Source: Roseinatronobacter monicus (lineage in GTDB: Bacteria > Pseudomonadota > Alphaproteobacteria > Rhodobacterales > Rhodobacteraceae). Taken from it: a DNA stretch of 64,000 bases. Positions 6,797 through 57,229 of this stretch are shown one piece after another (within the stretch, counting starts at the first letter, position 1; each line of letters opens with the position of its first letter). The notes beneath the pieces are model-generated. The model saw only the letters and a program-made list of their open reading frames with translations. It searched no databases and had not been told where the DNA came from. The stretch is from contig NZ_VFPT01000001.1 in the NCBI RefSeq assembly GCF_006716865.1, positions 3,405,001 to 3,469,000 on the forward strand, given 5' to 3'. Made by a program: the position numbers and the translations under genes.

Positions 6797-7495
6797 CTAC
6801 CCCAGATACGCCCGCAGCGCCGCTGGCGGGTTGTCCAGCAGATGCGCGGTGTCAAACGGGCCTTCGGCCATGCCATCCGCCACCAGAATGGTCTGCTCCG
6901 CAACCGCACGCGCGTCGCTGATATCATGCGTGACCATCAGCAATGTCGCGCCCGTCTCGGCGCAGATATCGGCCACCAGTTGCAGCATTTCGACCTTCAG
7001 CGCCGGGCCAAGGGCCGAAAACGGCTCGTCCAGCAGCACCAGCGGCTTGCCCTGCAACACCACCCGCGCCAGCGCCACACGGCTTTGCTGCCCGCCCGAC
7101 AGTTGCGCGGGGCGGCGCGCGCCAAACCCCTCCAGCCCCACACGCGCCAGCGCCGCCGTGACCTGCGCGCGCTCGGCCACACTCAGGCGCAATGACGGGC
7201 GCAGGCCCAGCGCCACATTGTCAAAGGCCGACAGATGCGGAAACAGGTTGTTGTCCTGAAACAACACCGAGATGGGGCGCGCTGCCGGGCCTTGGTCTGA
7301 AATGGTCTTTCCCGCCCAGATAATGCGCCCTTGCGTCGCAGGCACAAAGCCCGCAACCGCCCCCAACAATGTCGATTTCCCCGCCCCTGACGGCCCGATT
7401 ACAGCCACGCGCGCGCACGGTTCGACCGCCAGATCAGCGCGCAGCGCGAAATCATCCTGCGTGATCGTCACCCCCTCAAGCCTCAGCAAATCCAC
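6797..7495 (-). CDS. thiQ: Thiamine ABC transporter ATP-binding protein
   Basis: 232 residues from a GTG start that overlaps the end of thiP by 20 bp; this equals the usual ThiQ length. The ABC ATPase motifs are complete: Walker A GPSGAGKST, Q-loop in LFQDNNLFPHLSAF, signature LSGGQQSRVALAR, Walker B LVLLDEPFSALG, and switch histidine in MVTHDISDA. It powers import of thiamine or thiamine phosphates by ThiP with periplasmic ThiB. It is the last gene of the riboswitch-controlled thiBPQ operon. The longer open frame up to 7570 runs into thiP and is not used. Confidence 0.93.
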   Translation of the reverse strand: MDLLRLEGVTITQDDFALRADLAVEPCARVAVIGPSGAGKSTLLGAVAGFVPATQGRIIWAGKTISDQGPAARPISVLFQDNNLFPHLSAFDNVALGLRPSLRLSVAERAQVTAALARVGLEGFGARRPAQLSGGQQSRVALARVVLQGKPLVLLDEPFSALGPALKVEMLQLVADICAETGATLLMVTHDISDARAVAEQTILVADGMAEGPFDTAHLLDNPPAALRAYLG

Positions 7496-9053
7496 GCCCC
7501 CATTTGTCGAAAATCCAGAATAGCGCAAGGCTGGCGCCCAGCAACACCAACGCCGCCCCCGCCGCATCATCCAGCCTGTAGGCGGTCATCAGGCGATAAA
7601 GCTGCATGGGCAGGGTTGCCCCCTCGCGCTCGGCAAACAGCATGATCACACCCAGATCGCCCATCGACAAGGCCGCCGTCAGACCAGCGGCAAAGCCCAA
7701 AGGGCGGCGCAGACGCGGCAGGGTCACGATGCGCAACCGCGCCCAGCCGTGCAGCCCCAGACTGTCGGCCAGCCGCCCCTGACTGGCCACCACCTCGCGC
7801 AGGCCCGGCAGGATCAGGCGCAGGGCAAAGGGCAGCGCCATGCCTGCGTTGACCAGCATTGTCACCACCAGTGCGAAATCGCGCGGGTTGGCAAGCGGGC
7901 GGATCAGCAGATACAGACCCGTGCCGATCACAAGGGGTGAGGCGGCCAGTGCCGCCAGCCCCAACCATTCCAGCACCGCGCCCCGCGCGTCCCCTGCAAT
8001 CAGCACCGCATGGGCCAGCGCCAGTGTCATCGCCAATGTCACGCCCGTTGCGCCCAATGCGACGACAAGCGAGCGGCCAGCCGCCTGCCACACCTCAACC
8101 GGCAGACCCACGACATGCGGCGCGCCGCGCATGACCACCAGCGCCAGCGGCACCAGCAGGAACAACGCGCCCCCAACGATCAGCGCGCCATCCCACAGGC
8201 GCAGGCCCGCAGTGCCTGTATCGAAACGCTGCACAGGCCGGTCCATCCCGCCGCCAAGGCCGGATGGCAACGCCATCCGCCACGCCAGCACCCCCGCCCC
8301 CGCACACAGCCCGAATTGCACCAACGCCAGCATCGCCGCGCGGCCCATGTCGAAATCAAACCGGAATGCCTGATAAATCGCCAACTCCACTGTGGTGGCG
8401 CGCGGGCCACCGCCCATTGTCAGTGCCACGGAAAAGCTGGTCAGGCAGATCAGGAAGATGACCAGAAACGCCCCCGGCACCAGATCGCGCAGCATCGGCC
8501 ATTCCAACTGGCGGAAATTATCCCGTGGCCCAAAGCCCAATGTGGCCCCAAGGCGGAACCGCTCTGCCGGGATCGCAGCCCAGCCTTGCAGCAGAATGCG
8601 CGTGGCCAAGGGCAGGTTGTAGAACACATGCGCCAGCACGACGCCATGCAGACCAAATATGTTCAGCCGCGCAAGGCCTAGCCCCTCCAACCCCTGATTG
8701 ACCAGCCCGGCGCGGCCAAATACTGCCAGCAACCCCAGCACGGCGACCAAGGTGGGCAGGATAAACGGCGCGCCCATCAGCATAATCAGCGCGTCCCGCC
8801 CGATGAAACGCCGGCGTGCCAAGGCCCGCGCAATCGGCACGGCCAGCGCAACCGACAGCGCTGCCGATAAAAGGGCCTGAACAAGGGTAAACCGCACCGC
8901 CGCCCAATCGGCACCGCGCAAGGCGGTCAGCCCTTCGGCGCGCCAAGCCACAGCCCCAAGCGCACCGAAATTCAGCACCACCAGCCACGCTGCAACGCCC
9001 AGACCCGCCAGAATGGCGGCTGCGCGCGCTGTGCGGGCCGGGTCGCGTGTCAC
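7476..9053 (-). CDS. thiP: Thiamine/thiamine pyrophosphate ABC transporter permease
   Basis: 525 residues. The GTG start at 9053 overlaps the thiB stop as GTGA, implying translational coupling; a TTG at 9074 is less likely. The protein is a fused double permease with about 12 membrane segments, first near residues 15-35 (ILAGLGVAAWLVVLNFG), and two EAA-type loops: one around LQGWAAIPAERFRLGATLG and one near ADSLGLHGWARLRIVTLP. ThiP forms the channel of the ThiBPQ importer in the inner membrane. Position between thiB and thiQ confirms the call. Confidence 0.93.
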   Translation of the reverse strand: MTRDPARTARAAAILAGLGVAAWLVVLNFGALGAVAWRAEGLTALRGADWAAVRFTLVQALLSAALSVALAVPIARALARRRFIGRDALIMLMGAPFILPTLVAVLGLLAVFGRAGLVNQGLEGLGLARLNIFGLHGVVLAHVFYNLPLATRILLQGWAAIPAERFRLGATLGFGPRDNFRQLEWPMLRDLVPGAFLVIFLICLTSFSVALTMGGGPRATTVELAIYQAFRFDFDMGRAAMLALVQFGLCAGAGVLAWRMALPSGLGGGMDRPVQRFDTGTAGLRLWDGALIVGGALFLLVPLALVVMRGAPHVVGLPVEVWQAAGRSLVVALGATGVTLAMTLALAHAVLIAGDARGAVLEWLGLAALAASPLVIGTGLYLLIRPLANPRDFALVVTMLVNAGMALPFALRLILPGLREVVASQGRLADSLGLHGWARLRIVTLPRLRRPLGFAAGLTAALSMGDLGVIMLFAEREGATLPMQLYRLMTAYRLDDAAGAALVLLGASLALFWIFDKWGRGFAEA

Positions 9054-27754: not shown

Positions 27755-28334
27755 GTTCTGCCTCCAGTCTTCTGACCAGTTTCTGGACCGCCGCGCGCGT
27801 GCTGTCCATATCTGTCGTCTCGATCACGAAATCTGCGCGCGCGCGCTTTTCGGCATCAGGCATCTGGCGTGCAAGAATGGCATCAAGTTGCGCCTCATTC
27901 ACGTCCGGGCGTTCCAACACGCGGGCGCGTTGCACATTTTCCGGCGCGGTGACGACCAAGACACCATCAACCTGCGCGCCCACCTCAAACAGCAATGGAA
28001 TATCCAGCACAACAAGTGGGCCAGATAGAGATGCGACAAACGCCTCGCGGTCCTGCGCCACCAGCGGATGCACCACAGATTCCAGTGCAGCCAATGCCGT
28101 GGGGTCGCGCGCTATCCAGCGCTTCAACTCTGCGCGGTCAATCGCAGCATCGCGCAACGCTTCGGGGCAAAGGGCGGCAACCGGCCCGACCGCAGCGCCA
28201 TCCTTGCCATACAACCGGTGCACTGCTGCATCCGCATCCCAGACCGGAACGCCCATGTCGCGGAAGAACCCAGCAGTGGTGCTTTTGCCCATGCCGATCG
28301 ACCCTGTCAACCCCAGTCGATATGGCTGCCTCAT
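27747..28334 (-). CDS. coaE: Dephospho-CoA kinase
   Basis: 195 residues from ATG 28334, coupled to aroE by ATGA. The P-loop GLTGSIGMGKSTT, WDADAAVHRLYG, and the lid region ARQMPDAEKRARADFVIET are CoaE hallmarks. It phosphorylates the ribose 3'-OH of dephospho-CoA, the last CoA synthesis step. The open frame extends upstream inside aroE, which is shadow. Confidence 0.96.
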   Translation of the reverse strand: MRQPYRLGLTGSIGMGKSTTAGFFRDMGVPVWDADAAVHRLYGKDGAAVGPVAALCPEALRDAAIDRAELKRWIARDPTALAALESVVHPLVAQDREAFVASLSGPLVVLDIPLLFEVGAQVDGVLVVTAPENVQRARVLERPDVNEAQLDAILARQMPDAEKRARADFVIETTDMDSTRAAVQKLVRRLEAEHA

Positions 28335-29158
28335 GCGCGCAAAACCGCAGCGCGCAGCGCCTCGGTCACCTCTGGCTTGTGTCCAAACCACCGCTCGAAC
28401 CCCGGTACGGCCTGATGCAGCAACATGCCCAGCCCGTCGACCACAACACACCCAGAGCGGTGCGCATGTTGCAATAAAGGGGTGTCCAAGGGTGTATAAA
28501 CCAGATCCGTCACAACGGTTTGCGCCGAAAACAGTGTATCGGGCAACTCTAGCGCGGGCTGTCCGACCATTCCCAGCGAAGTTGTATTGACGACAAGCGC
28601 GGCATTCTGCGCGGCATCGGGCCAATTTGCCCAATCAACGATTGTGATGGGCGCCCCGAGATCCTGCGCCAACCCCTCTGCCCGCGCGCGGGTTCGGTTG
28701 GCCAGCCGAATATCGGTGACACCTGCATCTGCCAGCGCCACGATCACAGCCCGCGCGGCACCGCCCGCACCCAATATCAGCACAGGACCGTCCGCCGCAC
28801 GCCACGCAGGCGCACCCGCTTGCAAGTTGCGCAAAAACCCATAGCCATCGGTGTTGTCAGCATGGACCGCGCCATTCACGAAGGTCAGGGTATTCGCAGC
28901 CCCGATCGCGCGCGCCATTGGTGTGACATCATCCGCAAGGGCAAGCACAGCTTCTTTATGCGGGATCGTCACATTCGCGCCGAAAAACCCCATCATGGGC
29001 ATAACGCGCAACACCCGCTCCAGATCATTGGCTTCGACATGCAGGGGCACGTAATGGCCCTTGATCCCGTACTCCCGCAGCCATGTGCCATGCAATAGCG
29101 GCGATCGACTGTGACCAATGGGGCACCCGATGACGCCGGCCAAGGGTATCTTGCTCAT
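28331..29158 (-). CDS. aroE: Shikimate dehydrogenase (NADP+)
   Basis: 275 residues. GCPIGHSRSPLLHGTWL binds shikimate, NVTIPHKEAV carries the catalytic lysine, NTDGYGF the aspartate, and VLILGAGGAARAVIVAL with NRTRARAE binds NADPH. It reduces 3-dehydroshikimate; the pathway's last enzyme AroC is also in this window but in another operon. Its start overlaps the maf stop (ATGA). Confidence 0.97.
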   Translation of the reverse strand: MSKIPLAGVIGCPIGHSRSPLLHGTWLREYGIKGHYVPLHVEANDLERVLRVMPMMGFFGANVTIPHKEAVLALADDVTPMARAIGAANTLTFVNGAVHADNTDGYGFLRNLQAGAPAWRAADGPVLILGAGGAARAVIVALADAGVTDIRLANRTRARAEGLAQDLGAPITIVDWANWPDAAQNAALVVNTTSLGMVGQPALELPDTLFSAQTVVTDLVYTPLDTPLLQHAHRSGCVVVDGLGMLLHQAVPGFERWFGHKPEVTEALRAAVLRA

Positions 29159-29748
29159 CCCTCGATTTCTCCTCGCAAAGCCAGATAATTCAGCAATTCC
29201 AACAAGGGCAGACCAAGAATGGTAAAATAATCACCCTGTATCTGCGCGAACAGGCGCACGCCCTCTTCCTCCAGCTTGTATCCGCCGACAGAAGCGCCAA
29301 TCGCAGGCCAGTTGCGGTCCAGATAAGCATCAAGATAGCTGTCGGAAAAGCTGCGCATGGTCAGGCGCGCGACGCCCACATGCCGCCAGACAGGTTCGCC
29401 ATCATCATACAGCACAGCGGCAGACAGCAACTGGTGCGTCCCTGCACGCAGCAGGCAGAGTTGATCGCGCGCCACCTGTTTCGTCGGGGGTTTTTCCAAG
29501 ACAGCGCCCTTATGCGCAAGAACCTGATCGCACCCCAAAACCAGACGGCCCGGCATACGCCCGGACACTTTGCGCGCCTTGGCCTCTGCCAATGTATCAG
29601 CGATATCGCGGGGAGGGGCCGCATCTGCCAGCAGGGACGCAATAAGCGCGGACTCGTCCACACGCGCGACGGCAACCTCCGGGTGCAGGCCCGCATTCTC
29701 AAGCATCTGACGCCTGATTTCAGAACCCGAAGCCAAGACAAGTGTCAT
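29155..29748 (-). CDS. maf: Maf/YhdE-like nucleotide pyrophosphatase
   Basis: 197 residues from ATG 29748 (MTLVLASGSEIRRQML). Maf motifs: LASGSEIRR, VDES, GCDQVL, and GGYKLEEEGVRLFAQIQGDYFTILGLPLL. Maf proteins hydrolyse non-canonical or modified NTPs; paralogue class cannot be fixed. The start codon shares a base with a perfect DnaA box, so transcription begins inside or beside the proposed origin. Confidence 0.93.
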   Translation of the reverse strand: MTLVLASGSEIRRQMLENAGLHPEVAVARVDESALIASLLADAAPPRDIADTLAEAKARKVSGRMPGRLVLGCDQVLAHKGAVLEKPPTKQVARDQLCLLRAGTHQLLSAAVLYDDGEPVWRHVGVARLTMRSFSDSYLDAYLDRNWPAIGASVGGYKLEEEGVRLFAQIQGDYFTILGLPLLELLNYLALRGEIEG

Positions 29749-30127
29749 GTGGATAACCTTGTGATCAAGCACGCCAATAAGTGATGGCAAACTAGCCAGA
29801 TATCCCCAGCCATGCCAAGTGCTGTCATGTTGTGCCCGCCGCCGCAAGGGCTCGGGCCGGTCTGTCCACACGGGATAACTCGCCACGTACCGTCTGTGCA
29901 AAACCCGAATCACCAAGAGTAACAAACACGTTATTCTTGGTTTGTTCCGTTTTATACCTATGTTTTAATTGCGTTTTTTTCACGTTCAACGTGTATCGAG
30001 ATTTGGCGGGGGTGTGGATAACTCTGTGCATGGAAAAGTTATCCCCATATCCACAGGCCTTACTACAACATCATTCCCTTCTATCTCTTTATTAATTAAA
30101 GAAGGACAAAACAGAGAAGAGGCAATC
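29749..30127. other. Probable chromosomal replication origin (oriC)
   Basis: A 379-bp non-coding gap between maf (-) and hemJ (+). DnaA boxes: TGTGGATAA at 29748-29756 and at 30013-30021 (both perfect, minus strand), TTATCCCCA 30039-30047 and ATATCCACA 30047-30055 (8 of 9), ATATCCCCA 29800-29808 (7 of 9). An AT-rich, T-rich stretch (about 29935-29985) could be the unwinding element; a second AT-rich patch lies at 30078-30105. A 13-bp palindrome CACGTTCAACGTG lies at 29981-29993. Neighbouring genes (hemJ, rho, mnmEG, parAB; maf-aroE-coaE-dnaQ) match the Caulobacter-type origin context and mostly read away from the gap. Confidence 0.83.
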
Positions 30128-30565
30128 ATGTTGAGCGATCTGTATTTGTGGATCAAGGCGTTGCATATCATGGCTGTCATCGCCTGGATGGCAGGCTTGT
30201 TTTATCTGCCTCGATTGTTCGTCTACCATGTTGAACGATCTGCCAGCGCAGAAATGGGCGCAGTCTTTCAGACGATGGAAGAAAAACTGCTGCGCGTCAT
30301 CATGAACCCCGCAATGATCGTGGCATGGCTGACAGGGCTGACGATGGTCTCCATCCCCGGCCTGATCGACTGGTCCCTGATCTGGCCATGGAGCAAGTTC
30401 ATCGGGCTGATCGGCATGACATGGTTTCACATGTGGTGCGCACGGCGGCGGCGCATCTTTGCCGAAGGCGGCAATGCATTGAGCGGGCGCAATTACCGCA
30501 TGATGAACGAAGTCCCGACCGTGCTGATGGTGGTGATTGTTCTGTCGGTGATCGTGAAATTCTGA
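30128..30565 (+). CDS. hemJ: HemJ-type protoporphyrinogen IX oxidase
   Basis: 145 residues with four membrane segments; ATG 30128 follows GAGG. LWIKALHIMAVIAWMAGLFYLPRLFVYH carries the conserved histidines, and LLRVIMNPAMIVAWLTGL and WFHMWCARRRR are family features. HemJ oxidises protoporphyrinogen to protoporphyrin in heme and chlorophyll synthesis where HemG/HemY are absent. In relatives hem genes also border the origin. Confidence 0.93.
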   Translation: MLSDLYLWIKALHIMAVIAWMAGLFYLPRLFVYHVERSASAEMGAVFQTMEEKLLRVIMNPAMIVAWLTGLTMVSIPGLIDWSLIWPWSKFIGLIGMTWFHMWCARRRRIFAEGGNALSGRNYRMMNEVPTVLMVVIVLSVIVKF

Positions 30566-30629
30566 AGCCAGATTGACTCTGGCGCTGATATTTCGTATGC
30601 GACAGCCAACCCCGCCGTCCGGTGGGACG

Positions 30630-30645
30630 TGTTCCACATGAAACG
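30630..30645. promoter_or_regulatory. Degenerate parS-like site upstream of rho
   Basis: TGTTCCACATGAAACG matches 13 of 16 bases of the parS consensus. It lies in the hemJ-rho gap. Binding by ParB is uncertain with three mismatches. Confidence 0.35.
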
Positions 30646-30690
30646 ATGACAAGATGTCCTGCACGTGGTGTGGGCAAGCAGGGTGTTGCA

Positions 30691-31992
30691 ATGTCCGATA
30701 CGGTGATCGAAGACCGGCCTGAAAGCGAAGAAACGCTGAACCTCGCAGACCTCAAGGCGAACAGCCCGGCGGACCTGCTGGCGATGGCCGAAGAGTTGGA
30801 GATTGAGAACGCACCTTCCATGCGCAAGGGCGAGATGATGTTCTCGATCTTGAAGGAACGCGCGGAAGAAGGCTGGATCATCTCTGGCGAGGGTGTGCTG
30901 GAAGTGCTGCAAGACGGTTTTGGTTTTCTGCGCGCACCAGAAGCAAACTACCTGCCCGGTCCCGATGACATTTACGTCTCGCCTGATGTGATCCGCCAGT
31001 ATTCGCTGCGCACCGGCGACACAATCGAAGGGGTGATACAAGCCCCCGCCGAGAATGAGCGGTATTTCGCAATCACCAAGGTGACGCGGATCAATTTTGA
31101 TGACCCGGAACGTGCGCGCCACAAGGTCCATTTCGACAACCTGACCCCGCTTTACCCTGATGAGCGGCTGTGGATGGAAACCGGCGACCCTGCCACAAAA
31201 GACCGCTCTGCGCGGATCATCGACATCGTCTCGCCGCTTGGCAAAGGCCAGCGTGCCCTGATCGTGGCCCCGCCGCGCACGGGTAAAACCGTTTTGTTGC
31301 AAAATATTGCGCATAGCATCGCCCAAAACCACCCTGAGTGTTATCTGATCGTCCTGCTGATCGACGAACGGCCAGAGGAAGTGACGGACATGCAGCGCTC
31401 GGTCAAGGGCGAGGTGATTGCCTCGACCTTCGACGAACCGGCAACGCGACATGTGGCCGTGGCTGAAATGGTCATAGAAAAGGCCAAGCGCCTTGTCGAG
31501 CACAAGCGCGATGTGGTGATCCTGCTGGATTCCATCACTCGTCTGGGCCGCGCCTTTAACACGGTGGTTCCAAGCTCGGGCAAGGTGCTGACCGGCGGTG
31601 TGGATGCGAACGCCCTGCAACGCCCCAAGCGCTTCTTCGGGGCTGCGCGGAATATCGAAGAGGGTGGTTCACTCAGCATCATCGCAACCGCGCTGATCGA
31701 CACAGGCTCGCGCATGGACGAAGTGATCTTTGAAGAATTCAAAGGCACCGGCAACAGTGAAATCGTGCTGGATCGCAAAGTGGCTGACAAGCGCGTCTTC
31801 CCGGCGATGGATATTCTGAAATCCGGCACCCGGAAAGAGGATCTGCTGATCGAGAAGAACGATCTTCAGAAAACCTTTGTCCTGCGCCGCATCCTGAACC
31901 CGATGGGCACAACCGACGCCATCGAATTCCTGATCTCGAAGCTGAAACAGACCAAAACCAACAGCGATTTCTTCGACTCGATGAATTCCTGA
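30691..31992 (+). CDS. rho: Transcription termination factor Rho
   Basis: 433 residues from ATG 30691. N-terminal helix domain ([19 protein letters not shown]), the RNA-binding cold-shock fold ([16 protein letters not shown]), Walker [14 protein letters not shown], Walker [12 protein letters not shown], and the R-loop [24 protein letters not shown] are in order. The hexamer ends transcription at rut sites. The 125-bp leader is long and non-coding, compatible with autoregulation. Confidence 0.97.
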
Positions 31993-31993
31993 C

Positions 31994-33280
31994 ATGGACA
32001 CGATTTTCGCACTGGCCTCGGCCCGTGGAAAATCGGGCGTGGCTGTTATTCGGGTGTCGGGTCCACAGGCGCATTCTGTTGTCAAAACTCTGACTGGGGC
32101 GCTGCCACAGGCGCGCCGCGCATCCTTGCGAAAGCTGCACACCGCGGATGGGGACTTGCTGGACACCGCATTGGTCGTAATCTTCGACCAGGGCGCCAGC
32201 TTTACCGGCGAACAGGTTGCAGAAATCATGACGCATGGCAGTCTGGCAACTGTCGCAGCCGTTGAGGCCTGTCTGGCGCAAGATCACGGCCTGCGGATGG
32301 CAGAACCGGGCGAATTCACCCGCCGCGCGCTGGAGAACGGCGTTCTTGACCTGACGCAGGTAGAGGCACTGGGTGACCTGCTGGAGGCCGAGACGGAAAG
32401 CCAGCGCCGGCAGGCTATGCGCGTCTTGGATGGGGCCTTGGGCAGGCTGGTTGAGGGGTGGCGCGGGCATCTGCTAAAAGCAGCGGCCTTGGTCGAGGTT
32501 TCAATCGATTTCGTCGAAGAGGATGTCGGCAATTTTGATGCGATGATATTGGCAGAACTGAATGCGGTGCAATCTCAGCTATTGGCCGAAATTTCAGGGC
32601 AGGCGGTACGCGAGCGGGTGCAAAGCGGGTTCGAGATTGCGCTGATCGGGTCGGTCAACGCGGGAAAATCCACCCTGCTGAATGCGCTGGCAGGCCGGGA
32701 AGCTGCGATCACCTCTGATATTGCAGGCACGACGCGCGATGTTATCGAGTTGCGCATGGATATTGGCGGCTATGCTGTGACATTGCTGGATACAGCAGGG
32801 CTGCGAGAGACGCGCGAAGAGATTGAAAGCATCGGCATCGCACGCGGGCAAAAGCGCGCCGCTGACGCCGATATTCGCATTATATTGTGTGACGGACCCG
32901 ATATTCCACCACCTGTAGACGTTATCCCTAATGATATTGTCACGTTTAGCAAGGCTGACCAGTTTCCCCAAGCGCAGGGCGGAGTGTCGGGTGTGACGAG
33001 CGAAGGGATTGATGCGTTGTTGCAAGAGATTGTGCAGCGCTTGTCTGTGATGACGGCGCGCGACGGGGTGAGTGTGCGGCGTCGCCACTTGCAGGCCATG
33101 ACTGCTGCGCAACACGCATTAGAGAGTGCGATTGAAAAACTGACCGATGAGGGGTATATCCCCGAACTGGTGGCAGCTGACATACGTCAAGCGATGACAG
33201 CGCTGGATTCCTTGATTGGCAAAATAGATGTGGAAGATTTGCTTGGTGACATCTTCGCGTCTTTCTGTATCGGCAAGTAG
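31994..33280 (+). CDS. mnmE: tRNA modification GTPase MnmE
   Basis: 428 residues, start one base after the rho stop. The N-terminal folate-binding domain ([21 protein letters not shown]), central helices, an inserted G domain ([27 protein letters not shown]) and the C-terminal CIGK motif are complete. The G domain is somewhat short between G3 and G4 ([16 protein letters not shown]). With MnmG it installs carboxymethylaminomethyl groups at the wobble uridine of tRNAs. Confidence 0.97.
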
Positions 33281-33283
33281 GAG

Positions 33284-33299
33284 TGTTTCACGTGAAACA
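33284..33299. promoter_or_regulatory. parS site at the mnmG start
   Basis: TGTTTCACGTGAAACA, a perfect match to the consensus parS palindrome bound by chromosomal ParB. It fills the spacer between the Shine-Dalgarno sequence and the GTG start of mnmG. Confidence 0.96.
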
Positions 33300-35154
33300 T
33301 TATGATGTGATTATTGTTGGCGGTGGACATGCCGGCGTCGAGGCGGCCTTGGCGGCATCGAGGATGGGCGCTGCGACCGCATTGGTCACATTTAGAAAGT
33401 CTGATCTTGGTGTGATGTCCTGCAACCCTGCGATTGGCGGATTGGGCAAGGGGCATCTGGTCCGTGAAATAGACGCCTTGGATGGGCTGATGGGCCGCGC
33501 GGGTGATTTTGCCGCGATTCAATATCGCCTGCTCAACCGCTCCAAAGGTCCCGCTGTGCAAGGCCCGCGTATCCAAGCGGACCGCGCGCGATACCGCGAA
33601 ATTGTTTCACGTGAAACACTTGCCGCGCAGAACCTTGATGTAATTGAGGCAGAAGTCACAGCCCTTTTGCAGCGGGGTGACGCTGTAGTCGGCATCCAAG
33701 TTAACGGCACCGCAGAGATTCACGCGCGCTCTGTCGTTCTGACCACAGGCACATTTCTGGGCGGCAAGGTCTTTATCGGCGATGAAAGCTTCCCCGCCGG
33801 ACGGATGGGTAACGCCGCGTCCAGCATATTGGCGCAACAACTGCGCGGCTTGGGGCTGCCCATGGGTCGCCTAAAGACCGGCACACCCCCTCGGCTTGAT
33901 GGGAAATCGATTGACTGGGATATGCTGGAAAAACAGCAAGGCGACGAGTCACCAGAGTACTTATCATTTCTGACAGACCACGTCATCGCGCCACAGGTTC
34001 CCTGCGCGATCACACATACAAACGAGCGAACACATGAGATTGTGCGCGATAACCTGTCGCGGTCTGCCATGTATGGCGGGCATATCGAGGGGGTTGGCCC
34101 CCGCTACTGCCCTTCGATAGAAGATAAGGTGATGCGATTCGCCGAGAAAACATCGCATCAGGTGTTTCTGGAACCCGAAGGGCTTAACGACGATACGGTG
34201 TACCCCAATGGCATTTCAACCTCGCTTCCTGCCGAGGTTCAAACTGCCTATGTGCGCAGTATTGCCGGGCTAGAGCATGTGACGATCCTTCAGCCGGGTT
34301 ACGCCATTGAATATGACTATATCGACCCACGAGCATTAACGCTGTCTTTACGTTTGAAGGATATGCAAGGGTTTTACCTTGCCGGCCAGATAAACGGAAC
34401 CACAGGCTATGAGGAGGCAGCAGCACAAGGGTTGGTTGCAGGTTTGAACGCGGCGCTTTTCGCGCATGGCCGCGATGCCGTGACCTTCAGCCGGTCAACG
34501 TCCTATATTGGCGTGATGATCGACGATCTTACTCTACGCGGTGTGGCGGAGCCTTATCGTATGTTCACCTCTCGGGCGGAGTATCGATTGTCTTTGCGCG
34601 CCGATAACGCTGACCAACGGCTGACGCCGCTGGGCATATCTCTGGGGTGTGTGTCTGAGGCGCGGCAACAGGAATTTGAGGGCAAGCTGGAACGGCTGGA
34701 GAAAGCGAAAGGCAAGATGCGGGCCGTTACATTCACGCCGGGCCAGTTGAACCGGGCAGGGCACAAAATCAGCGAAGATGGAACGCGCAGAAATGCCCTG
34801 ACACTGCTTGGCCTGTCGGGATTTAATTTTGATGTTCTGACGCAGCTTGTGCCAGAGTTTGCAGAAATTGATGACGCAACCAAGCGCCAGATCGAGAAAG
34901 AAATGGTCTATGATTCCTATCTGGACCGGCAAGATGCGCAGATAAAAGCGTTGCAGGCGGATGAAGACCGGCGTTTTCCAGAAGGGTTTGATTTCACAAA
35001 GATAAACGGGCTGTCAAACGAACTGGCGGGAAAGCTGACACGTATTCGTCCAGAAACCTTGGCGCAGGCTGCACGGATAGACGGGATGACACCGGCAGCG
35101 TTGGTGCTCCTGTTGTCGCGCTTGCAGCACCGCAAAAATCGTGCATCGGCATGA
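33292..35154 (+). CDS. mnmG: tRNA modification FAD protein MnmG (GidA)
   Basis: 620 residues. GTG 33292 has AGGAG (33279-33283) 8 bases upstream; the GTG at 33283 overlaps that sequence and is less likely. [18 protein letters not shown] binds [29 protein letters not shown] is signature 1, and [20 protein letters not shown] is signature 2. The C-terminal part ([27 protein letters not shown]) contacts MnmE. Two perfect parS sites lie in this gene, one at the start and one at 33603. Confidence 0.97.
33603..33618. promoter_or_regulatory. parS site inside mnmG
   Basis: TGTTTCACGTGAAACA, perfect consensus, within the coding frame where it encodes VSRET. Confidence 0.96.
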
Positions 35155-35768
35155 CGGAAGTGACCATCTGCGGGTTAGATGTTTCACGTGAAACATATGA
35201 CACCCTTCAGAATTATGTGGCGCTGCTTCACAAGTGGAATGCCCATATAAACCTTGTGGCGGCGTCTACATTACCTGATTTCTGGGACCGCCACGTTCTG
35301 GATTCAGCGCAGCTTTTCACCCATGCGCCCGCAACAACCCGCCATTGGGTCGATTTAGGGTCTGGTGGCGGGCTTCCGGGCCTTGTCTGTGCAGTGCTCG
35401 CAAAGCAATTTTTGCCTGAATGCAAGTTTACGCTGGTTGAAAGTGATGCCCGCAAGGCCGCGTTTTTAACGACGGCGATACGTGATCTGGAACTCAATAC
35501 GCGCGTACTGGTTGCCCGCACAGAAGCCGCACCACCGCAGAACGCAGATATTGTTTCGGCCCGCGCTTTGGCCCCGTTGCCGCAATTGCTCGACTGGGTT
35601 ACGCGGCATATCGCCAAAGATGGTGTTGCCCTGTTGCCAAAGGGAAAAAACTACGCTGAAGAGCTTGCGGTGGCGCGGCGAGAATGGCAATTTAGCGAGG
35701 CCATTATCGAGAGTCAGACCGACCCGTTGGCGAGATTGCTCATTTTGAAGGATATCAAACGTGTCTGA
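35151..35768 (+). CDS. rsmG: 16S rRNA (guanine-N7) methyltransferase RsmG (GidB)
   Basis: 205 residues, start overlapping the mnmG stop (ATGA). [21 protein letters not shown], the SAM site [16 protein letters not shown] and [14 protein letters not shown], and [15 protein letters not shown] are RsmG features. It methylates G527 of 16S rRNA. A perfect parS lies in its first codons. Its 3' end overlaps the parA start by 8 bp. Confidence 0.97.
35180..35195. promoter_or_regulatory. parS site inside rsmG
   Basis: TGTTTCACGTGAAACA, perfect consensus, in the rsmG frame encoding VSRET. Confidence 0.96.
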
Positions 35769-36576
35769 TCTGACAGCCACCCGAACCATCGCAATTGCGA
35801 ATCAGAAAGGCGGGGTTGGAAAGACGACGACTGCAATCAACCTTGCAGCGGCCCTTGCAGAGCGTGGCGAGAAGACTTTGCTGGTTGATCTCGACCCGCA
35901 AGGCAATGCGTCGACCGGACTAGGGTTGGAGGTCTCGGCGCGCAAATACACAACATATGATTTTTTGTTCGCAAGCGTCCGCCCGTCAGAGATTGTCATT
36001 CAAACGCCGCATAACAACCTTTCTGTCATTCCAGCTACCACAGATCTGTCATCAGCGGATATCGAATTGATGACCCGCGCGCGGCGCAGCTATCTGCTGC
36101 ACGATGCCTTGCGTCACCCCGAGATCAGAGAGGCGGGCTACGACTATATTCTGGTGGATTGCCCACCATCATTGAACCTGCTGACGATCAACGCCATGGT
36201 TGCGGCGCAGTCGGTTCTGGTGCCCTTGCAGGCAGAGTTTTTCGCTCTTGAGGGGCTGTCTCAGCTTATGCTGACGGTGCGCGAGCTGCGCGAAACTGCG
36301 AATACCTCGCTTCGGATCGAGGGGATTTTGTTGACGATGTTCGACCGCCGCAACAATCTAGCGCAGCAGGTTGAAGCAGACGCGCGCGGTAATCTGGGCG
36401 AGCTGGTGTTGCGCACGATGATTCCGCGGAATGTCCGGCTGAGCGAAGCGCCATCTTATGCCATGCCGGTTCTGAATTTTGATTCATCGTCGAAAGGGGC
36501 CATCGCGTATCGTGATCTGGCCACTGAACTTCTTGAAAAGCACAATAAACTTCACTCAGAGGGAGTGGTCCAATGA
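35761..36576 (+). CDS. parA: Chromosome-partitioning ATPase ParA
   Basis: 271 residues from GTG 35761. Deviant Walker A NQKGGVGKTTTAINLA, Walker A' LLVDLDPQGNASTGLG, Walker B YDYILVDCPPSLNLLT and EGILLTMFDRRNNLAQQV define a chromosomal (Soj-type) ParA without an N-terminal DNA-binding extension. It binds DNA non-specifically as an ATP dimer and pulls ParB-parS complexes from the origin. Coupled to parB by ATGA. Confidence 0.97.
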   Translation: MSDLTATRTIAIANQKGGVGKTTTAINLAAALAERGEKTLLVDLDPQGNASTGLGLEVSARKYTTYDFLFASVRPSEIVIQTPHNNLSVIPATTDLSSADIELMTRARRSYLLHDALRHPEIREAGYDYILVDCPPSLNLLTINAMVAAQSVLVPLQAEFFALEGLSQLMLTVRELRETANTSLRIEGILLTMFDRRNNLAQQVEADARGNLGELVLRTMIPRNVRLSEAPSYAMPVLNFDSSSKGAIAYRDLATELLEKHNKLHSEGVVQ

Positions 36577-37445
36577 CTGAACGCAAACCCGAGCGCAGAG
36601 GTTTGGGCCGTGGCCTGTCCGCCTTGATGGCCGAAGTAACACCCGATGCAACCAGCACCGAGCGTCCGCGCGAACAGAACCTGCCTGTGGAAAAGCTTGT
36701 CGCCAATCCCGACCAGCCGCGTCGGCATTTCGATGATACGGCGCTGGCAGAACTTGCCATGTCCATCCGCGAGAAGGGTGTCATTCAACCGCTGATCGTG
36801 CGTCCAAAGGGCGATATGTTCGAAATTGTTGCGGGTGAGCGGCGCTGGCGCGCGGCTCAGCGCGCACAGGTACATGAAGTGCCTGTTATCATTCGGGAAT
36901 TTACGGATACCGAGGTTCTTGAAGTTGGTATTATCGAGAATATCCAGCGCGCTGACCTGAACCCAGTGGAAGAGGCGATGGGCTACCGGACCTTGATCGA
37001 ACGGTTTGGGCATACGCAAGAGCATCTGTCCCAAGCGATGGGCAAAAGCCGTTCGCATATTGCCAATCTCATGCGCTTGCTGACCCTGCCTGCGGAAGTG
37101 CAGACTATGGTGCGCGAGGGAAAGCTCACCGCTGGCCATGCACGTGCGCTTATTACAGCGGATGATCCGGCCATGCTGGCGCGCAAGGTCGTGCTGGAGG
37201 GGTTGTCTGTCCGTCAGACGGAAAGCTTGCTTAAATCCCCATATAGCCCAAGTAAGAAAGCAAAATCAACGGCTTATAGTAAAGATGCGGACACGCGTGC
37301 TTTGGAAAACGACCTGTCGGCGAGTCTGGGTATGCCTGTTGATCTGGAATATGCTGGCGGTCGGGGCAAGGTGACGATCACCTTTCAATCTATGGAACAG
37401 CTTGACCGCCTGTGCGGTATCCTCGGCACGCCGGTCAGGACGTAA
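36573..37445 (+). CDS. parB: Chromosome-partitioning CTPase/DNA-binding protein ParB
   Basis: 290 residues. The N-terminus RRGLGRGLSALMAE is the ParA-activating segment. The CTP-binding domain has the GERRWRAAQRA motif and ENIQRADLNPVEEA; the helix-turn-helix is HTQEHLSQAMGKSRSHIANLMRLL; the C-terminal dimer domain ends at 37445. It loads on parS and spreads as a clamp. Target sites lie 1.4 to 3.3 kb upstream. The 3' end overlaps that of hemW by 11 bp. Confidence 0.97.
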   Translation: MTERKPERRGLGRGLSALMAEVTPDATSTERPREQNLPVEKLVANPDQPRRHFDDTALAELAMSIREKGVIQPLIVRPKGDMFEIVAGERRWRAAQRAQVHEVPVIIREFTDTEVLEVGIIENIQRADLNPVEEAMGYRTLIERFGHTQEHLSQAMGKSRSHIANLMRLLTLPAEVQTMVREGKLTAGHARALITADDPAMLARKVVLEGLSVRQTESLLKSPYSPSKKAKSTAYSKDADTRALENDLSASLGMPVDLEYAGGRGKVTITFQSMEQLDRLCGILGTPVRT

Positions 37446-38589
37446 GCGCCCGCAACACTGCATTCAGCACTGGCCGCCCGTGATCTGTTGCCATGATCCG
37501 GGTGTCCGTCTGCGCTATAACCCCTTGCTCAATGAGATCGCGGATGCGTTCCGATGGCAGGGCGGTCCCTGCAAGCTGCTGATACCGGTGCAGATCACTG
37601 CCTTCGGACAGGCGCATACTCATCATCAGATATTCCAGCGCCTGCTCCTGCGCAGGTACGGTTTCGCGCGCGAGTTCTCCATGACCAGTGCGGGAGACCT
37701 GGTCCAGCCAGGTTGCCGGGGCTAGGGGGGTCTGTGTGGCGATGCGCGTTCCGTTGCGCGTCAGGCGGCCATGTGCGCCGGGCCCGATGCCTGCATAATC
37801 GCCATAGCGCCAATAGATCAGGTTGTGGCGCGACTGTGCCCCCGCGCGGGCGTGATTGGACACCTCATAGGCGGGCATTCCGTGTGCTGCACAAATATCC
37901 TGTGTTAACAGATACATATCTGCTGAAATATCGTCGTCAGGCAACCCTTTTAGCCCGCCTTTTGCGTGCCTTTCGCCAAAGGCCGTGCCTTGCTCGATGG
38001 TCAGTTGGTACAGCGACAGGTGATCGACGGCCATGGACAGCGCTTCTTGCAACTCCCGCTCCCACGCCTGCAAGCTTTGGAACTGGCGCGCATAAATCAG
38101 GTCGAAACTGACGCGGTCAAACTGTTCTCGGGCGATATCAAACGCCACGCGCGCCTCGGCCACGCTGTGCAGGCGGCCCAGTCGGCGCAGATCTTCGTCA
38201 TTCAGCGCTTGTATCCCCATGGAAATGCGGTTCACGCCCGCCTGCGCAAAGCCCTGAAACCGACCCGCTTCGACAGAGCCGGGGTTCGCTTCTAACGTGA
38301 CCTCAAAATCATTGGCGGTCGTCCAGCGCGCAGTGATCCGCTCCAACACCGTGGCAACCAGATCGGGTGACATGAGCGAGGGGGTGCCGCCGCCAAAAAA
38401 AACCGTGTTCAGCAAGCGGCCCTTGGTTTCCTCGGCCACGCGGTCAATCTCTGACAGATAGGCGCGTTCCCATGCGTTCTGGTCAATTTCGGCTGCGACA
38501 TGGCTGTTAAAGTCGCAATATGGGCATTTCGACTGACAAAACGGCCAATGAAGATACAGGCCAAAGCCACCATTTTGCCAGTCGTCCAT
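37435..38589 (-). CDS. hemW: HemW-like radical SAM heme chaperone
   Basis: 384 residues. The radical SAM cluster motif is CQSKCPYC (with CDF following), and FFGGGTPSLMSP is the next motif. HemW has the extra cysteine but lacks coproporphyrinogen oxidase activity; it inserts heme into respiratory enzymes. The C-terminal HemN domain (AGIGPGAHGRL, ALEYLMMSMRLSEG) is present. The lack of an N-terminal extension argues for HemW over HemN. It is last in the rph-rdgB-ridA-hemW run. Confidence 0.93.
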   Translation of the reverse strand: MDDWQNGGFGLYLHWPFCQSKCPYCDFNSHVAAEIDQNAWERAYLSEIDRVAEETKGRLLNTVFFGGGTPSLMSPDLVATVLERITARWTTANDFEVTLEANPGSVEAGRFQGFAQAGVNRISMGIQALNDEDLRRLGRLHSVAEARVAFDIAREQFDRVSFDLIYARQFQSLQAWERELQEALSMAVDHLSLYQLTIEQGTAFGERHAKGGLKGLPDDDISADMYLLTQDICAAHGMPAYEVSNHARAGAQSRHNLIYWRYGDYAGIGPGAHGRLTRNGTRIATQTPLAPATWLDQVSRTGHGELARETVPAQEQALEYLMMSMRLSEGSDLHRYQQLAGTALPSERIRDLIEQGVIAQTDTRIMATDHGRPVLNAVLRALTS

Positions 38590-38591
38590 AT

Positions 38592-38966
38592 CTACCCCTT
38601 AAAGGCCGTAACCTCGATTTCGATCAGCATTTCCGGCTTGATTAACCCTGCAATAACAATCGTTGCCGCCGGTCGTATCTCGCCCATTGCGGCGCCTAGT
38701 GCGGGTGTGACCTCGTCCATCAGCGCAGCATCGGTCAGCGTGTATTGCACGCGCACAATATCGTCGAGGGTGAAGCCGCCCTCTGCCAACACCTTTTCGA
38801 TAGTGGCAAAGCAGTTGCGCGCCTGATCGGCCGCGCTTTCGGGCATGGTCATGGTGCTGTAATCATAGCCTGTGACGCCCGAGACGAAACACCAGCCACC
38901 TTTGACGATGGCGCGGCTGAAGCCAAGTGTTTTTTCAAAGGGGGAACCGGTAGAGATGCGTTTCAT
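38592..38966 (-). CDS. RidA (YjgF/YER057c) family protein
   Basis: 124 residues from ATG 38966, overlapping the rdgB stop (ATGA); ATG 38975 would add three codons. Conserved features: SRAIVKGGWCFVSGVTGYD, QARNCFATIEKVLAEGG, VRVQYTLTD, and IRPAATIVIAGLIKPEMLIEIEVTAF. RidA proteins deaminate reactive enamines/imines, but the canonical active-site arginine (near RPAxT) is the only clear catalytic residue here, so substrate is open. A degenerate parS lies over its start. Confidence 0.88.
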   Translation of the reverse strand: MKRISTGSPFEKTLGFSRAIVKGGWCFVSGVTGYDYSTMTMPESAADQARNCFATIEKVLAEGGFTLDDIVRVQYTLTDAALMDEVTPALGAAMGEIRPAATIVIAGLIKPEMLIEIEVTAFKG

Positions 38967-38974
38967 GTGAAACA
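38959..38974. promoter_or_regulatory. Near-consensus parS site at the ridA start/rdgB end
   Basis: CGTTTCATGTGAAACA, 14 of 16 bases of parS, with one change in the centre and one at the edge. It overlaps the ATGA junction of rdgB and the RidA-family gene. Confidence 0.55.
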
Positions 38975-53995: not shown

Positions 53996-54084
53996 CTCAT
54001 GTCCTTTCAAGTTGGGTGTTCGGATAAACCCAGACAGGATGTAAACTCGGTTTGACGTGATTAGTTCCGCTTTGGTCGATCATA

Positions 54085-54112
54085 CAGGCGGCCCAACCAA
54101 GTGGGCCGCCTG
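54085..54112 (-). terminator. Hairpin after the OmpA-like gene
   Basis: CAGGCGGCCCA and TGGGCCGCCTG are perfect 11-bp arms around a 6-base loop, 20 bases past the OmpA-like stop. There is no T-run on the minus strand, so it may stabilise or attenuate rather than fully terminate. Confidence 0.55.
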
Positions 54113-54132
54113 TTTATTACAGCGCTGCGCGC

Positions 54133-56226
54133 TTAATTCGCCGCGATCTGGCGCAGCAGCGGTGTGATCCGGCGCACAGTTGCACGGCGGTTGCGTTGCT
54201 CTGCTGCTTGCGTCTGCACCTTCAGGAACTCTTCGCCATAGCCCTGCACAATCAGGTTTTCAGGCGGGATGCGGAACGCTTCGGTCAGGGCAAGCGCCAC
54301 GGATTCTGCGCGCCGGTCCGACAGGGCAAGGTTGTAGCTTGCGCTGCCCACTGCATCGGTATGTCCTTCGATCAGGAATATTTCACGCGGGTTCTCGAAC
54401 AGCATTTCCTCGATCAGGATGCCCAGCCGCACAAGGCTGCGCGCCTGCTTTGCCGGGATCGCCGCAGAGCCGGTGGCGAAGGTTACAGTATCGAGATCAA
54501 TCGCCGGAACAAGGCTGCGCACCTGCTCGATCTCGCGGATCTGGCGCAGGCTAAAGGTCCGGCCTGCGTCAAACGTCATGTCTTCGCGCAAGGCTGCGCG
54601 CAAGGCAACCTGATCGCTTTCTGCGACTGACAGGCGACGTGGGGCAGGACGCTGGGTTTGCAACTGGCGGACATCGACCACCTGCGCTGGTTCCAGATCA
54701 TCAAACAACTCGTATTGTGTACCATCTGGATAGATGGCGGCACGGCGCACGACCCGTCCGCGCGAATCCCGGATTGTTTCGACCCGAGAACCGTCAGCCC
54801 GTTCCAGGAAAGTGCGCGATGACCCGTCCGAAAAGGTTTCGGTGCGCACAGTTGCGCCGGGTTGGCGCAGCAGGGCATCATCGTCCTTATAAACAGTGTA
54901 TCCGCGCGCGCCCTCAACGATTACGCGGTCACCGGTATTGGCCACCACACGGTCACCACTGCGCAGCACTGCGCCGACAGCAACAGCGCCCAGACCCAGC
55001 AGCAACGCGCTTTCAAGGTTGCTCAGGCCGCTGCGTCCGCCGTCTTGCGTTCCGCTTGGGGCTGTTTCACCAAGGGCAGTTGCGAAGTCTTGCGCGCTGG
55101 TCCGGACGGATTCCGCATCCAGCGTCTCTTCAACCAATCCCTCAGATGCTGCTTCAGCTTCCTGCGTCGCCGCAACGGGCGCTTCTTGCTCTTCATCAAC
55201 GGTCGGGTCGGTCAACTCTGCATCATCTTCTGCTTCGGCCAGGGCTGTTGCTTCCGCTTCCGCTTCTGCCTCGGCCTGAGCTTCCAGCTCTGCTTCTTCG
55301 GCGGCCTCTTCTTCGGCCTCCTCAGCGGCAATTGCTTCGGCTTCTGCCTCGGCTTCGGCTTCTGCCTCGGCCTGAGCATCGAGTTCTGCTTGCTCGGCGG
55401 CCTCTTCCTCGGCTTCCTCAGCGGCAAGTGCTTCGGCTTCGGCTTCGGCTTCGGCTTCTGCCTCGGCCTGAGCATCGAGTTCTGCTTGCTCGGCGGCCTC
55501 TTCTTCGGCCTCCTCAGCGGCAAGTGCTTCGGCATCTGCCTCGGCTTCGGCATCTGCCTCGGCCTGAGCATCGAGTTCTGCTTGCTCGGCGGCCGCTTCT
55601 TCGGCCTCCTCAGCGGCAAGCGCCTCGGATTCGGCCGCAGCTTCCGCTTCTGCCTCGGCCTGAGCTTCGAGTTCTGCTTGCTCGGCGGCCGCTTCTTCGG
55701 CTTCCTCAGCGGCAAGTGCTTCGGCTTCTGCCTCGGCGGCCGCTTCTTCGGCCTCCTCAGCGGCAAGCGCCTCGGCTTCGGCCGCAGCTTCCGCCGCCGC
55801 CAGTGCCTCAGCCTCCGCTGCTTCGGCTTCGGCGCGGAGCGCTTCAGCTTGTGCTTCAGCCTCGGCCGCCTCGGCTGAGATGCGTTCAGCTTCGGCCAGT
55901 GCCGCTTCCAATGCTTCGGCCTCTGCTTCTTCTTGTTGCAGGCGCTCGGCTTCGGCTTGGGCCTCGGCGGCTTCTTCTTCGATCAGCCGTGCTGCATCTT
56001 CGGCTTCTGCGGCCAGTCGCGCAGCTTCGCTTGCAGCGAATTCAGCCCGTTCCTGCGGAGTAGAGCCGTCTTCCGGCTCGCCTTCGGGGCAGGGTGGTTG
56101 GGTTTCATCAAGGCAAAGCAACTCGGCTTCCTGCGCCCAGGCGGACGAGATGAGCACGGGGTGGGGCAACAGCAGCGACAGGCTGGTAACAAGCGCCGTA
56201 GTGGCCTTTAGCGGTGTGACAGGCAT
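54133..56226 (-). CDS. OmpA-family protein with long Ala/Glu-rich coiled coil
   Basis: 697 residues. ATG 56226 is chosen for AAAGGAAG upstream and the signal peptide that follows (ALVTSLSLLLPHPVLISSAWA). Residues about 60-340 are an Ala/Glu/Gln coiled coil built partly from 32-residue repeats. A glycine-containing hydrophobic stretch (SALLLGLGAVAVGAVL) and a beta-rich part (VVANTGDRVIVEGARGYTVYKDD) lead to a C-terminal OmpA domain (VTFATGSAAIPAKQARSL, IEGHTDAVGSASYNLALSDRRA) that binds peptidoglycan. It resembles proteins that tie the outer membrane to the wall across a wide periplasm. No C-terminal barrel or lipobox is seen. Confidence 0.85.
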   Translation of the reverse strand: MPVTPLKATTALVTSLSLLLPHPVLISSAWAQEAELLCLDETQPPCPEGEPEDGSTPQERAEFAASEAARLAAEAEDAARLIEEEAAEAQAEAERLQQEEAEAEALEAALAEAERISAEAAEAEAQAEALRAEAEAAEAEALAAAEAAAEAEALAAEEAEEAAAEAEAEALAAEEAEEAAAEQAELEAQAEAEAEAAAESEALAAEEAEEAAAEQAELDAQAEADAEAEADAEALAAEEAEEEAAEQAELDAQAEAEAEAEAEAEALAAEEAEEEAAEQAELDAQAEAEAEAEAEAEAIAAEEAEEEAAEEAELEAQAEAEAEAEATALAEAEDDAELTDPTVDEEQEAPVAATQEAEAASEGLVEETLDAESVRTSAQDFATALGETAPSGTQDGGRSGLSNLESALLLGLGAVAVGAVLRSGDRVVANTGDRVIVEGARGYTVYKDDDALLRQPGATVRTETFSDGSSRTFLERADGSRVETIRDSRGRVVRRAAIYPDGTQYELFDDLEPAQVVDVRQLQTQRPAPRRLSVAESDQVALRAALREDMTFDAGRTFSLRQIREIEQVRSLVPAIDLDTVTFATGSAAIPAKQARSLVRLGILIEEMLFENPREIFLIEGHTDAVGSASYNLALSDRRAESVALALTEAFRIPPENLIVQGYGEEFLKVQTQAAEQRNRRATVRRITPLLRQIAAN
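55234..55760 (-). repeat. 96-bp in-frame tandem repeat in the OmpA-like gene
   Basis: The core CTCAGCGGCA (plus strand) recurs at 55321, 55417, 55513, 55609 and 55705, exactly every 96 bp, then at 55756 (51 bp). Each unit encodes 32 residues of the type EALAAEEAEEEAAEQAELDA plus an (AE)n tail, with substitutions such as AD for AE. Confidence 0.9.
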
Positions 56227-56455
56227 TGTTTCTTCCTTTGTTTTTGAGCCGACGCGGTGACAGCACCCTAACCGGGGCTGAGCGACCAGCGAAAGCACAG
56301 ACGCGTTCATGGTGTCTATATAACGCTGTGCGTCAATGTTTGACGCATGCCGAAATACTACCTCACCAAGACGTGTTATCCAAAAACAGTGGGTTTTGCG
56401 CCGCTGGGCACGGTGCAAAACCTAAATGATTGTGGTGAAAAAGCGTGTCTGGCGA

Positions 56456-56983
56456 TCAGTAGAATTGCTGACAGTCTTCGGGCAGCAAATAGACGCGCTG
56501 AAACAGATTTCCGGCGCCATCTTCAAAACTGTTGCGCAAGGTGACGCCCATTCCGAACATCTCGCGCCCTTCGGTACAGATCGTCTCGGCACGGGATTCG
56601 ATCAGGCTGCGCATCTCGTCGGCAGAACTGCGGGCATCAGCGGCGGTTGTGACGTAATTATATTCCATGATCCGCATGCGTGGTACAAACAGCGCATCGG
56701 TCAGGGTCAGCGTGTCGGTCACTGCTGACGGCAGGCTTTCGCGGGCGTCAGCGGCCATTTCCTCTAGCAGGGCTTCTTCGTCGGGTGCCTCGGCTTCTGT
56801 ATCTGACGGGGTGATCGCTTCGGGTGCAACGGGCGCTGCTTGGGGTTCGGGTTCCGGCGCGGGGGCAGATGCCGCAGGTTCAGAGGCCGGTTCTGGCGCA
56901 GGCGGGGTGTCTGCCGGGACCAGCAGGAAATACGCGACCACCACTGCGACCAACGCGCCAAGGCCGATTAGGTATTTCATCAT
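56456..56983 (-). CDS. Membrane-anchored protein of unknown function
   Basis: 175 residues; ATG 56983 follows AGGAG. One membrane anchor (YLIGLGALVAVVVAYFLLV) is followed by a Pro/Ala/Glu linker (about 25-60) and a C-terminal domain of about 110 residues with two cysteines (ETICTEGREMFGMG and LLPEDCQQFY), probably periplasmic. No family is recognised. It lies 230 bp upstream of the OmpA-like gene on the same strand. The 216-bp gap to rnd shows nothing else. Confidence 0.78.
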   Translation of the reverse strand: MMKYLIGLGALVAVVVAYFLLVPADTPPAPEPASEPAASAPAPEPEPQAAPVAPEAITPSDTEAEAPDEEALLEEMAADARESLPSAVTDTLTLTDALFVPRMRIMEYNYVTTAADARSSADEMRSLIESRAETICTEGREMFGMGVTLRNSFEDGAGNLFQRVYLLPEDCQQFY

Positions 56984-57229
56984 TTCAATCACTCCTGCTG
57001 CCGCGACTGCCAAAAACCTATAGGTTTCTGCGCGAGAGGCAAGGGCACATCACCCTGCGATGCCGCGGGAGTGACTGGCCGGTCTTGTCGATCTGCGCTG
57101 TGTTTGGCATATGGGATCAAGCAGCATTGCAGGGTGGGGACAAATGTCACGCAGCGTCCGCACGGGGCTTTCCAATACGGCGCATATTGCCTATGCAAAT
57201 GCAACAGGACCAGCAGTCAGGCAAATTCT

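Follow-up and report, generated by a model that had tools for sequence, protein, structure and literature searches.

A candidate DnaA-dependent replication origin in the maf-hemJ gap of the Roseinatronobacter monicus chromosome

Our combined findings indicate, with a probability of about 94%, that the intergenic gap between maf and hemJ is the DnaA-dependent replication origin (oriC) of the 3.77-Mb chromosome. This origin belongs to an ordinary, already known type. A first-pass annotation of the sequence had placed oriC in this gap, and its proposal is strongly supported by GC skew, the polarity of KOPS-like octamers, parS sites, a dif-like site, the conservation of DnaA boxes and synteny, with some sampled pieces of the chromosome being contrary. 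The location of the origin, its boxes, their conservation, the skew around it and its duplex instability were all obtained by computation. The genome comprises 4,725,029 bases in 6 contigs; the window, meaning the whole 64-kb stretch of DNA that was analysed, spans positions 3405001-3469000 of contig C1 (3,772,823 bp). The gap, its flanking genes and its elements are as follows.

29155..29748, minus strand: maf (nucleotide pyrophosphatase; PF02545), left flank
29749..30127 (C1:3434749-3435127): candidate oriC, the 379-bp maf-hemJ intergenic gap, called on boxes, skew and conservation
29748-29756, minus strand: perfect DnaA box TTATCCACA at the maf end, with a conserved TGTG half-site (29760-29763) after it
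29800: weak DnaA box, 2 mismatches
29862-29870, plus strand: weak DnaA box, 2 mismatches, closer to consensus in several relatives
29895-29903, minus strand: weak DnaA box, 2 mismatches, reading TGTGGATAA in a few relatives
29931-29970: central T-rich stretch, the unwinding element of the first-pass annotation; second least stable, non-overlapping 40-mer of the window
29933-29947: conserved non-box element ATTC-N4-TTTGTTC bordering the central T-rich stretch, from the alignment of 25 close gaps
30013-30021, minus strand: perfect DnaA box TTATCCACA at the centre, then a TGTG half-site (30025-30028)
30039-30047, plus strand: DnaA box TTATCCCCA, 1 mismatch, first of a tandem pair
30047-30055, plus strand: DnaA box ATATCCACA, 1 mismatch, second of the tandem pair
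30056-30080, plus strand: GGCC spacer and conserved TTACTACAACATCATTCCC element, from alignments of relatives' gaps
30061-30100: preferred candidate for the DNA unwinding element; no 40-mer in the window is less stable
30128..30565, plus strand: hemJ (protoporphyrinogen oxidase; PF03653, TIGR00701), right flank

The clustering of DnaA boxes is beyond chance. Within the gap and 15 bases on each side we found four boxes with at most one mismatch, compared with 0.13 on average over 2000 dinucleotide shuffles, of which none reached four. Both perfect boxes named in the first-pass annotation are present, on the minus strand, as are its two boxes matching at 8 of 9 positions, which carry one mismatch each, lie on the plus strand and overlap by a single base (30047). 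Perfect boxes number 10 on the entire contig, and only the two of the gap stand less than 1 kb apart. The description of the surrounding core genes as mostly diverging was also borne out, with dnaQ, coaE, aroE and maf on the minus strand and hemJ, rho, mnmE, mnmG, rsmG, parA and parB on the plus strand; secB, further left than the dnaQ-maf group, is on the plus strand. The dnaA gene, at 3755 kb on the contig and 0.32 Mb from the gap, is not a neighbour of it. GANTC occurs once in the gap, with a mean of 0.82 sites per gap over the 67 gaps compared below, and shows no clustering. An Rfam search of 28000-32000 returned one match, far under the gathering score and located within hemJ, outside the gap, and it was rejected.

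Cumulative GC skew, which the first-pass annotation had proposed as a check, reaches its minimum in the window at the gap (~30 kb) and rises afterwards. For the chromosome as a whole, we sampled 40 stretches of 20 kb which, together with the window, gave 44 pieces and 864 kb (23% of the contig), and defined the right arm as running from the gap to the dif-like site via the contig end. The sign of the skew switches at the gap in this sample of 864 kb out of 3,772,823 bp: it is positive in 20 of 25 right-arm pieces versus 6 of 19 left-arm pieces, with pooled values of +0.0202 and -0.0175, respectively. The best split of the contig by skew has its sign change between pieces cut at 3434900, beating the neighbouring cuts (3420000 and 3450000). 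The far end of this split lies at 2.0 Mb, away from the dif-like site at 1.62 Mb, and the second-best split ends at 1.6 Mb. This dif-like site, the single one in the genome when up to 2 mismatches to the consensus are allowed, has one mismatch and is found at 1624860, nearly opposite the gap, giving arms of 1.81 and 1.96 Mb (48:52).

The KOPS-like octamer GGGCAGGG is oriented in the same manner, with forward and reverse copies in the sampled pieces at 74:10 in the right arm and 14:54 in the left. Genome-wide there are 412 and 373 copies, versus 70 and 83 for the reversed control. Contrary observations exist as well. The piece at 3405001-3420000, left of the gap, holds five forward and no reverse octamers, its GC skew having the expected sign; the right-arm pieces at 3470001 and 3550001 each hold none forward and two reverse; and octamer polarity is best split at ~3.40 Mb, which is 35 kb to the left of the gap. 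In related loci with enough flanking sequence (47, the window included), the skew minimum fell between -600 and +200 of hemJ in 28 and elsewhere in 19. Divergent genes alone could account for part of the local skew signal. Strong local AT skew is also seen in the window, at +0.34 in 7001-9000 and about -0.27 in 54001-57000. At C1:120992-133941, seven consecutive GGGCAGGG matches among those listed stand exactly 2157 bases apart, reflecting either an effect of the assembly or a 2157-bp unit repeated in a large tandem array.

We regard it as very improbable that the gap is merely a DnaA-regulated divergent promoter for maf and hemJ, with replication starting elsewhere on the contig. One DnaA box does abut the maf start codon, as such a promoter would have it, but the skew, dif-like and parS evidence speaks against this reading, as does the lack of any other pair of perfect boxes this close together on the contig. 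The maf-start box shares its last base with the ATG of maf (the A) and, read on the maf strand, spans the eight bases preceding that codon. DnaA bound at this position would presumably block the transcription or the translation of maf. The coupling of maf to DnaA suggested in the first-pass annotation is plausible from the sequence, since 56 of the 67 gaps have a box near maf. An origin role is nonetheless enough to explain this box, because the same composite of box plus TGTG recurs at 30013.

We compared the gap with those of relatives by scanning for hemJ. Among the best 80 of 366 loci, the nearest named relative is Roseinatronobacter thiooxidans, of a Rhodobacterales genus, whose hemJ is 90% identical. 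A usable maf-hemJ gap was obtained from 66 of these 80 loci, leaving out four with a contig ending near hemJ and 10 Paracoccus loci in which maf was not recognised; with the window this gave 67 gaps, whose start codons were extrapolated from the alignments. Nine of the Paracoccus loci have an aroE-hemJ spacing of 414-550 bases, and in the tenth none of the tested left-hand genes was found. Gap length in the 66 relatives is 348-485 bases by alignment ends and 342-448 once extrapolated to start codons. Boxes with at most one mismatch are present in nearly all gaps (at least one in 66/67 and at least two in 65/67), and 47 of the 67 have a perfect box. In 56/67 gaps the 60-base stretch around the maf start includes a minus-direction box, against a shuffled mean of 0.5, and a plus-direction box near hemJ is found in 58/67 against a shuffled mean of 2.9, TTATCCCCA being allowed as a further consensus for the latter. 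Contigs filed as Nitrospira and Verrucomicrobia metagenome bins carry origin regions of Rhodobacteraceae type, and their filing is therefore probably due to binning errors.

Four blocks stand out as conserved when the window is aligned with 24 close relatives (25 gaps). The maf start carries CATGTGGA-N-A-NN-C-N-TGTG, and ATTC-N4-TTTGTTC borders the central T-rich stretch on its left; position 30013 has TGTGGATAA together with TGTG, and 30039-30078 has TTATCCCCATATCCACAG with CATCATT. The second of these matches no DnaA, CtrA or IHF site and is more weakly conserved across all 67 gaps than in the 25 close ones. Over all 67 gaps, information is highest in the maf-end block and in the block around 30059-30080.

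Which part of the gap melts is a matter of graded preference. We ranked all 40-mers of the 64-kb window by nearest-neighbour energy, and the two least stable both fall inside the gap, giving it easily melted AT-rich sequence next to its boxes. The T-rich stretch that had been proposed as the unwinding element is thus real and ranks second; its instability stands, but it is the weaker of two choices, as 30061-30100, which the first-pass annotation did not mention, is less stable, adjoins the tandem boxes and has a conserved start. We consider 30061-30100 the probable melting site, as a preference and not as proof, because it is the least stable stretch and lies directly 3' of tandem boxes aimed at it, beyond a GGCC spacer and with a conserved start at 30059-30080. 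It is a preference only because the last 110 bases hold a less stable 40-mer than the centre in just 41 of 67 gaps, the centre being less stable in the other 26. That the gap is oriC with 29931-29970 as its unwinding element, opened in the leftward direction from the 30013 box, would agree with those 26 gaps, with the stretch being the second least stable of the window, with the conserved ATTC-N4-TTTGTTC at its edge and with the box at 30013 being aimed towards it. We judge this arrangement unlikely: the sequence of the T-rich stretch is itself poorly conserved, as are the 42 bp between it and that box, whereas the right-hand stretch adjoins the tandem boxes and is strongly conserved at its start.

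The preferred site at 30061-30100 resembles a known arrangement. In the basal unwinding system (BUS) of Bacillus subtilis, a box is followed by the melting stretch on its 3' side, and the same polarity is seen here. Tandem boxes, a short G+C-rich spacer, a conserved stretch and an AT-rich region are likewise shared with the BUS of this and other bacteria as described in PMC8287927, PMC6669920 and PMC10721633, with boxes 30039-30047 and 30047-30055 standing before the GGCC spacer. Under the search rule published for the BUS, three or more 3'-NAN-5' trios must lie no further than 16 bp from a box (PMC8287927). Unlike in the published BUS, no such set of trios was found at the tandem pair in the window, and a DnaA-trio reading of 30056-30078 was therefore rejected for the window. 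In the window, formal passes were limited to the 2-mismatch box at 29800 and to the maf-start box when read into the maf coding sequence, and near hemJ the rule was passed in 20 of 67 gaps (boxes with up to 2 mismatches), several of these having ATC repeats and not the usual trio; both counts are without a chance control.

From these features we infer DnaA binding, a melting site, an order of events and helicase loading as follows. DnaA would first occupy the two perfect boxes, at 29748 by maf and at 30013 in the centre, and would next fill the tandem pair at 30039-30055, aimed at hemJ. A DnaA filament would then be expected to grow from the tandem pair past the GGCC spacer, to reach into the conserved ACAACATCATT element and to open up the AT-rich 30061-30100, where the helicase would be loaded. 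Both forks would run to the dif-like site 1.8-2.0 Mb away, and ParB on five parS sites to the right of the gap would segregate the new origins.

Comparison with the Caulobacter crescentus origin (Cori) bears on the flanking genes. According to PMC1914354, Cori has a heme gene on one side and the maf side on the other, as here, and is likewise intergenic and AT-rich with several DnaA boxes. Its flanks are hemE and COG1806 (PMC1914354), and the usual order elsewhere in the class is hemE-[gap]-COG1806-maf; here, in contrast, hemJ is the neighbour, hemE lies at C1:826376-827398 (~1.2 Mb from the gap if the contig is circular) and a profile search for COG1806 (PF03618) found no match anywhere in the genome. 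Cori is also described as having five CtrA sites and one IHF site (PMC1914354), whereas at up to one mismatch the gap has neither the CtrA site TTAA-N7-TTAA nor a match to the IHF consensus. Across the 67 gaps, the CtrA site is perfect in 9 and present at up to one mismatch in 28.

Of 115 sampled genomes of the class, 80 had a PF03618 match (79 of them above the cut-off), versus 8 of 150 of the window's family. We examined 35 of these loci, namely the 30 best-scoring of the class and five of the eight of the family. Both hemE and maf were within about 1.5 kb in 31 of the 35 each. The gap on the heme-gene side, measured up to the start of the profile match, could be determined in 33 of the 35 and is 327-1067 bases long. 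These hemE-COG1806 or hemJ-COG1806 gaps contain at least one box (up to one mismatch) in 30 of 33 cases and at least two in 21 of 33, counted without a shuffle control. Two family members have kept COG1806 and carry hemJ instead of hemE across the gap. By their gene order, such loci appear to be intermediate between the usual order of the class and the hemJ-maf order. Since these intermediates link the two orders, the earlier argument that the origin lies between a hem gene and the maf side holds, with hemJ standing where hemE would be. The maf-hemJ neighbourhood thus appears to be a derived state of Caulobacter-type flanks, and the intermediates show the flanking genes of an alphaproteobacterial origin changing while the origin itself stayed put.

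The parS sites lie close to the gap, at 0.5-8.8 kb to its right beside parA and parB. The pattern GTTYCACRTGRAAC has five matches in the whole genome, all within 30631-38973 of the window.

30631-30644, plus strand: parS variant upstream of rho
33285-33298: parS overlapping the mnmG start codon
33604-33617: parS inside mnmG
35181-35194: parS inside rsmG
35761..36576, plus strand: parA (PF13614)
36573..37445, plus strand: parB (PF02195, PF17762, PF23552)
38960-38973, minus strand: parS variant

These sites bear on how origins have been called by software. The nonamer TGTTTCACG was put forward by Ori-Finder as the Bradyrhizobiaceae DnaA box, on the grounds that predicted origins next to gidA contain the palindrome TGTTTCACGTGAAACA (PMC2275245). 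A published Oligotropha origin is described with four copies of the nonamer (PMC3091675), which is also one of three DnaA boxes used in calling 101 Rhodobacteraceae origins (PMC6699656). In a published listing, the palindrome TGTTTCACGTGAAACA appears as the parS of Hyphomonas neptunium, and the Caulobacter parS is nearly the same (PMC7022226). The window holds seven exact copies of TGTTTCACG, six of which form three palindromes at 33284-35195 in mnmG (gidA) and rsmG, 3-5 kb from the DnaA boxes; one copy with a single mismatch lies inside the gap at 29976. The nonamer thus appears to be half of a ParB site (parS), a remark that we did not find among the literature matches listed, which were mostly titles and abstracts.

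A search with TGTTTCACG as the DnaA box would shift the true origin rightwards by a few kb, to where mnmG and rsmG contain the TGTTTCACGTGAAACA palindromes. Such a placement could appeal to the proposal of this nonamer next to gidA in Bradyrhizobiaceae (PMC2275245), to its use for Rhodobacteraceae (PMC6699656) and to the concentration of six of the seven exact copies of the window in three palindromes. It is highly unlikely nonetheless, as the palindrome is the listed parS of H. neptunium (PMC7022226), the copies sit within coding sequence and the skew turns at the maf-hemJ gap.

The maf-hemJ gap as oriC agrees in kind with the 101 Ori-Finder origins, which come from the same family and were called by the same criteria (skew minimum, local GC minimum and nearness to parAB), with the difference that the parS half TGTTTCACG was also counted there as a DnaA box (PMC6699656). 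No experimentally mapped Rhodobacteraceae oriC was found among the literature matches listed, mostly titles and abstracts. Our analysis places a compact, well-bounded origin in a family whose one surveyed origin set was called by software (PMC6699656), sets it apart from the nearby ParB centromere and names a specific 40-bp candidate melting site. It also suggests caution for tool annotation, as searches for DnaA boxes with TGTTTCACG may pick up ParB half-sites. It is possible, rather than probable, that two propositions hold jointly: that the Rhodobacteraceae have a variant unwinding module in which DnaA on the tandem boxes recognises ACAACATCATT and not canonical 3'-GAT-5' trios, and that some published Rhodobacteraceae and Bradyrhizobiaceae origin calls depend on ParB half-sites taken for DnaA boxes.

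Two of the parS positions recur among relatives, with a site overlapping the mnmG start codon in 65 of 68 and a site in or just before rsmG in 68 of 68. In the window, the palindrome at 33283-33300 includes the mnmG start codon, which is mostly GTG in relatives, and 42 of 68 have VFHVKH there. A single sequence thus appears to serve ParB binding, translation start and N-terminal coding. Finally, eleven weak PF00308 matches of identical bit score were found on contigs C1, C2, C5 and C6, probably representing IstB-type helper ATPases of an abundant insertion sequence.
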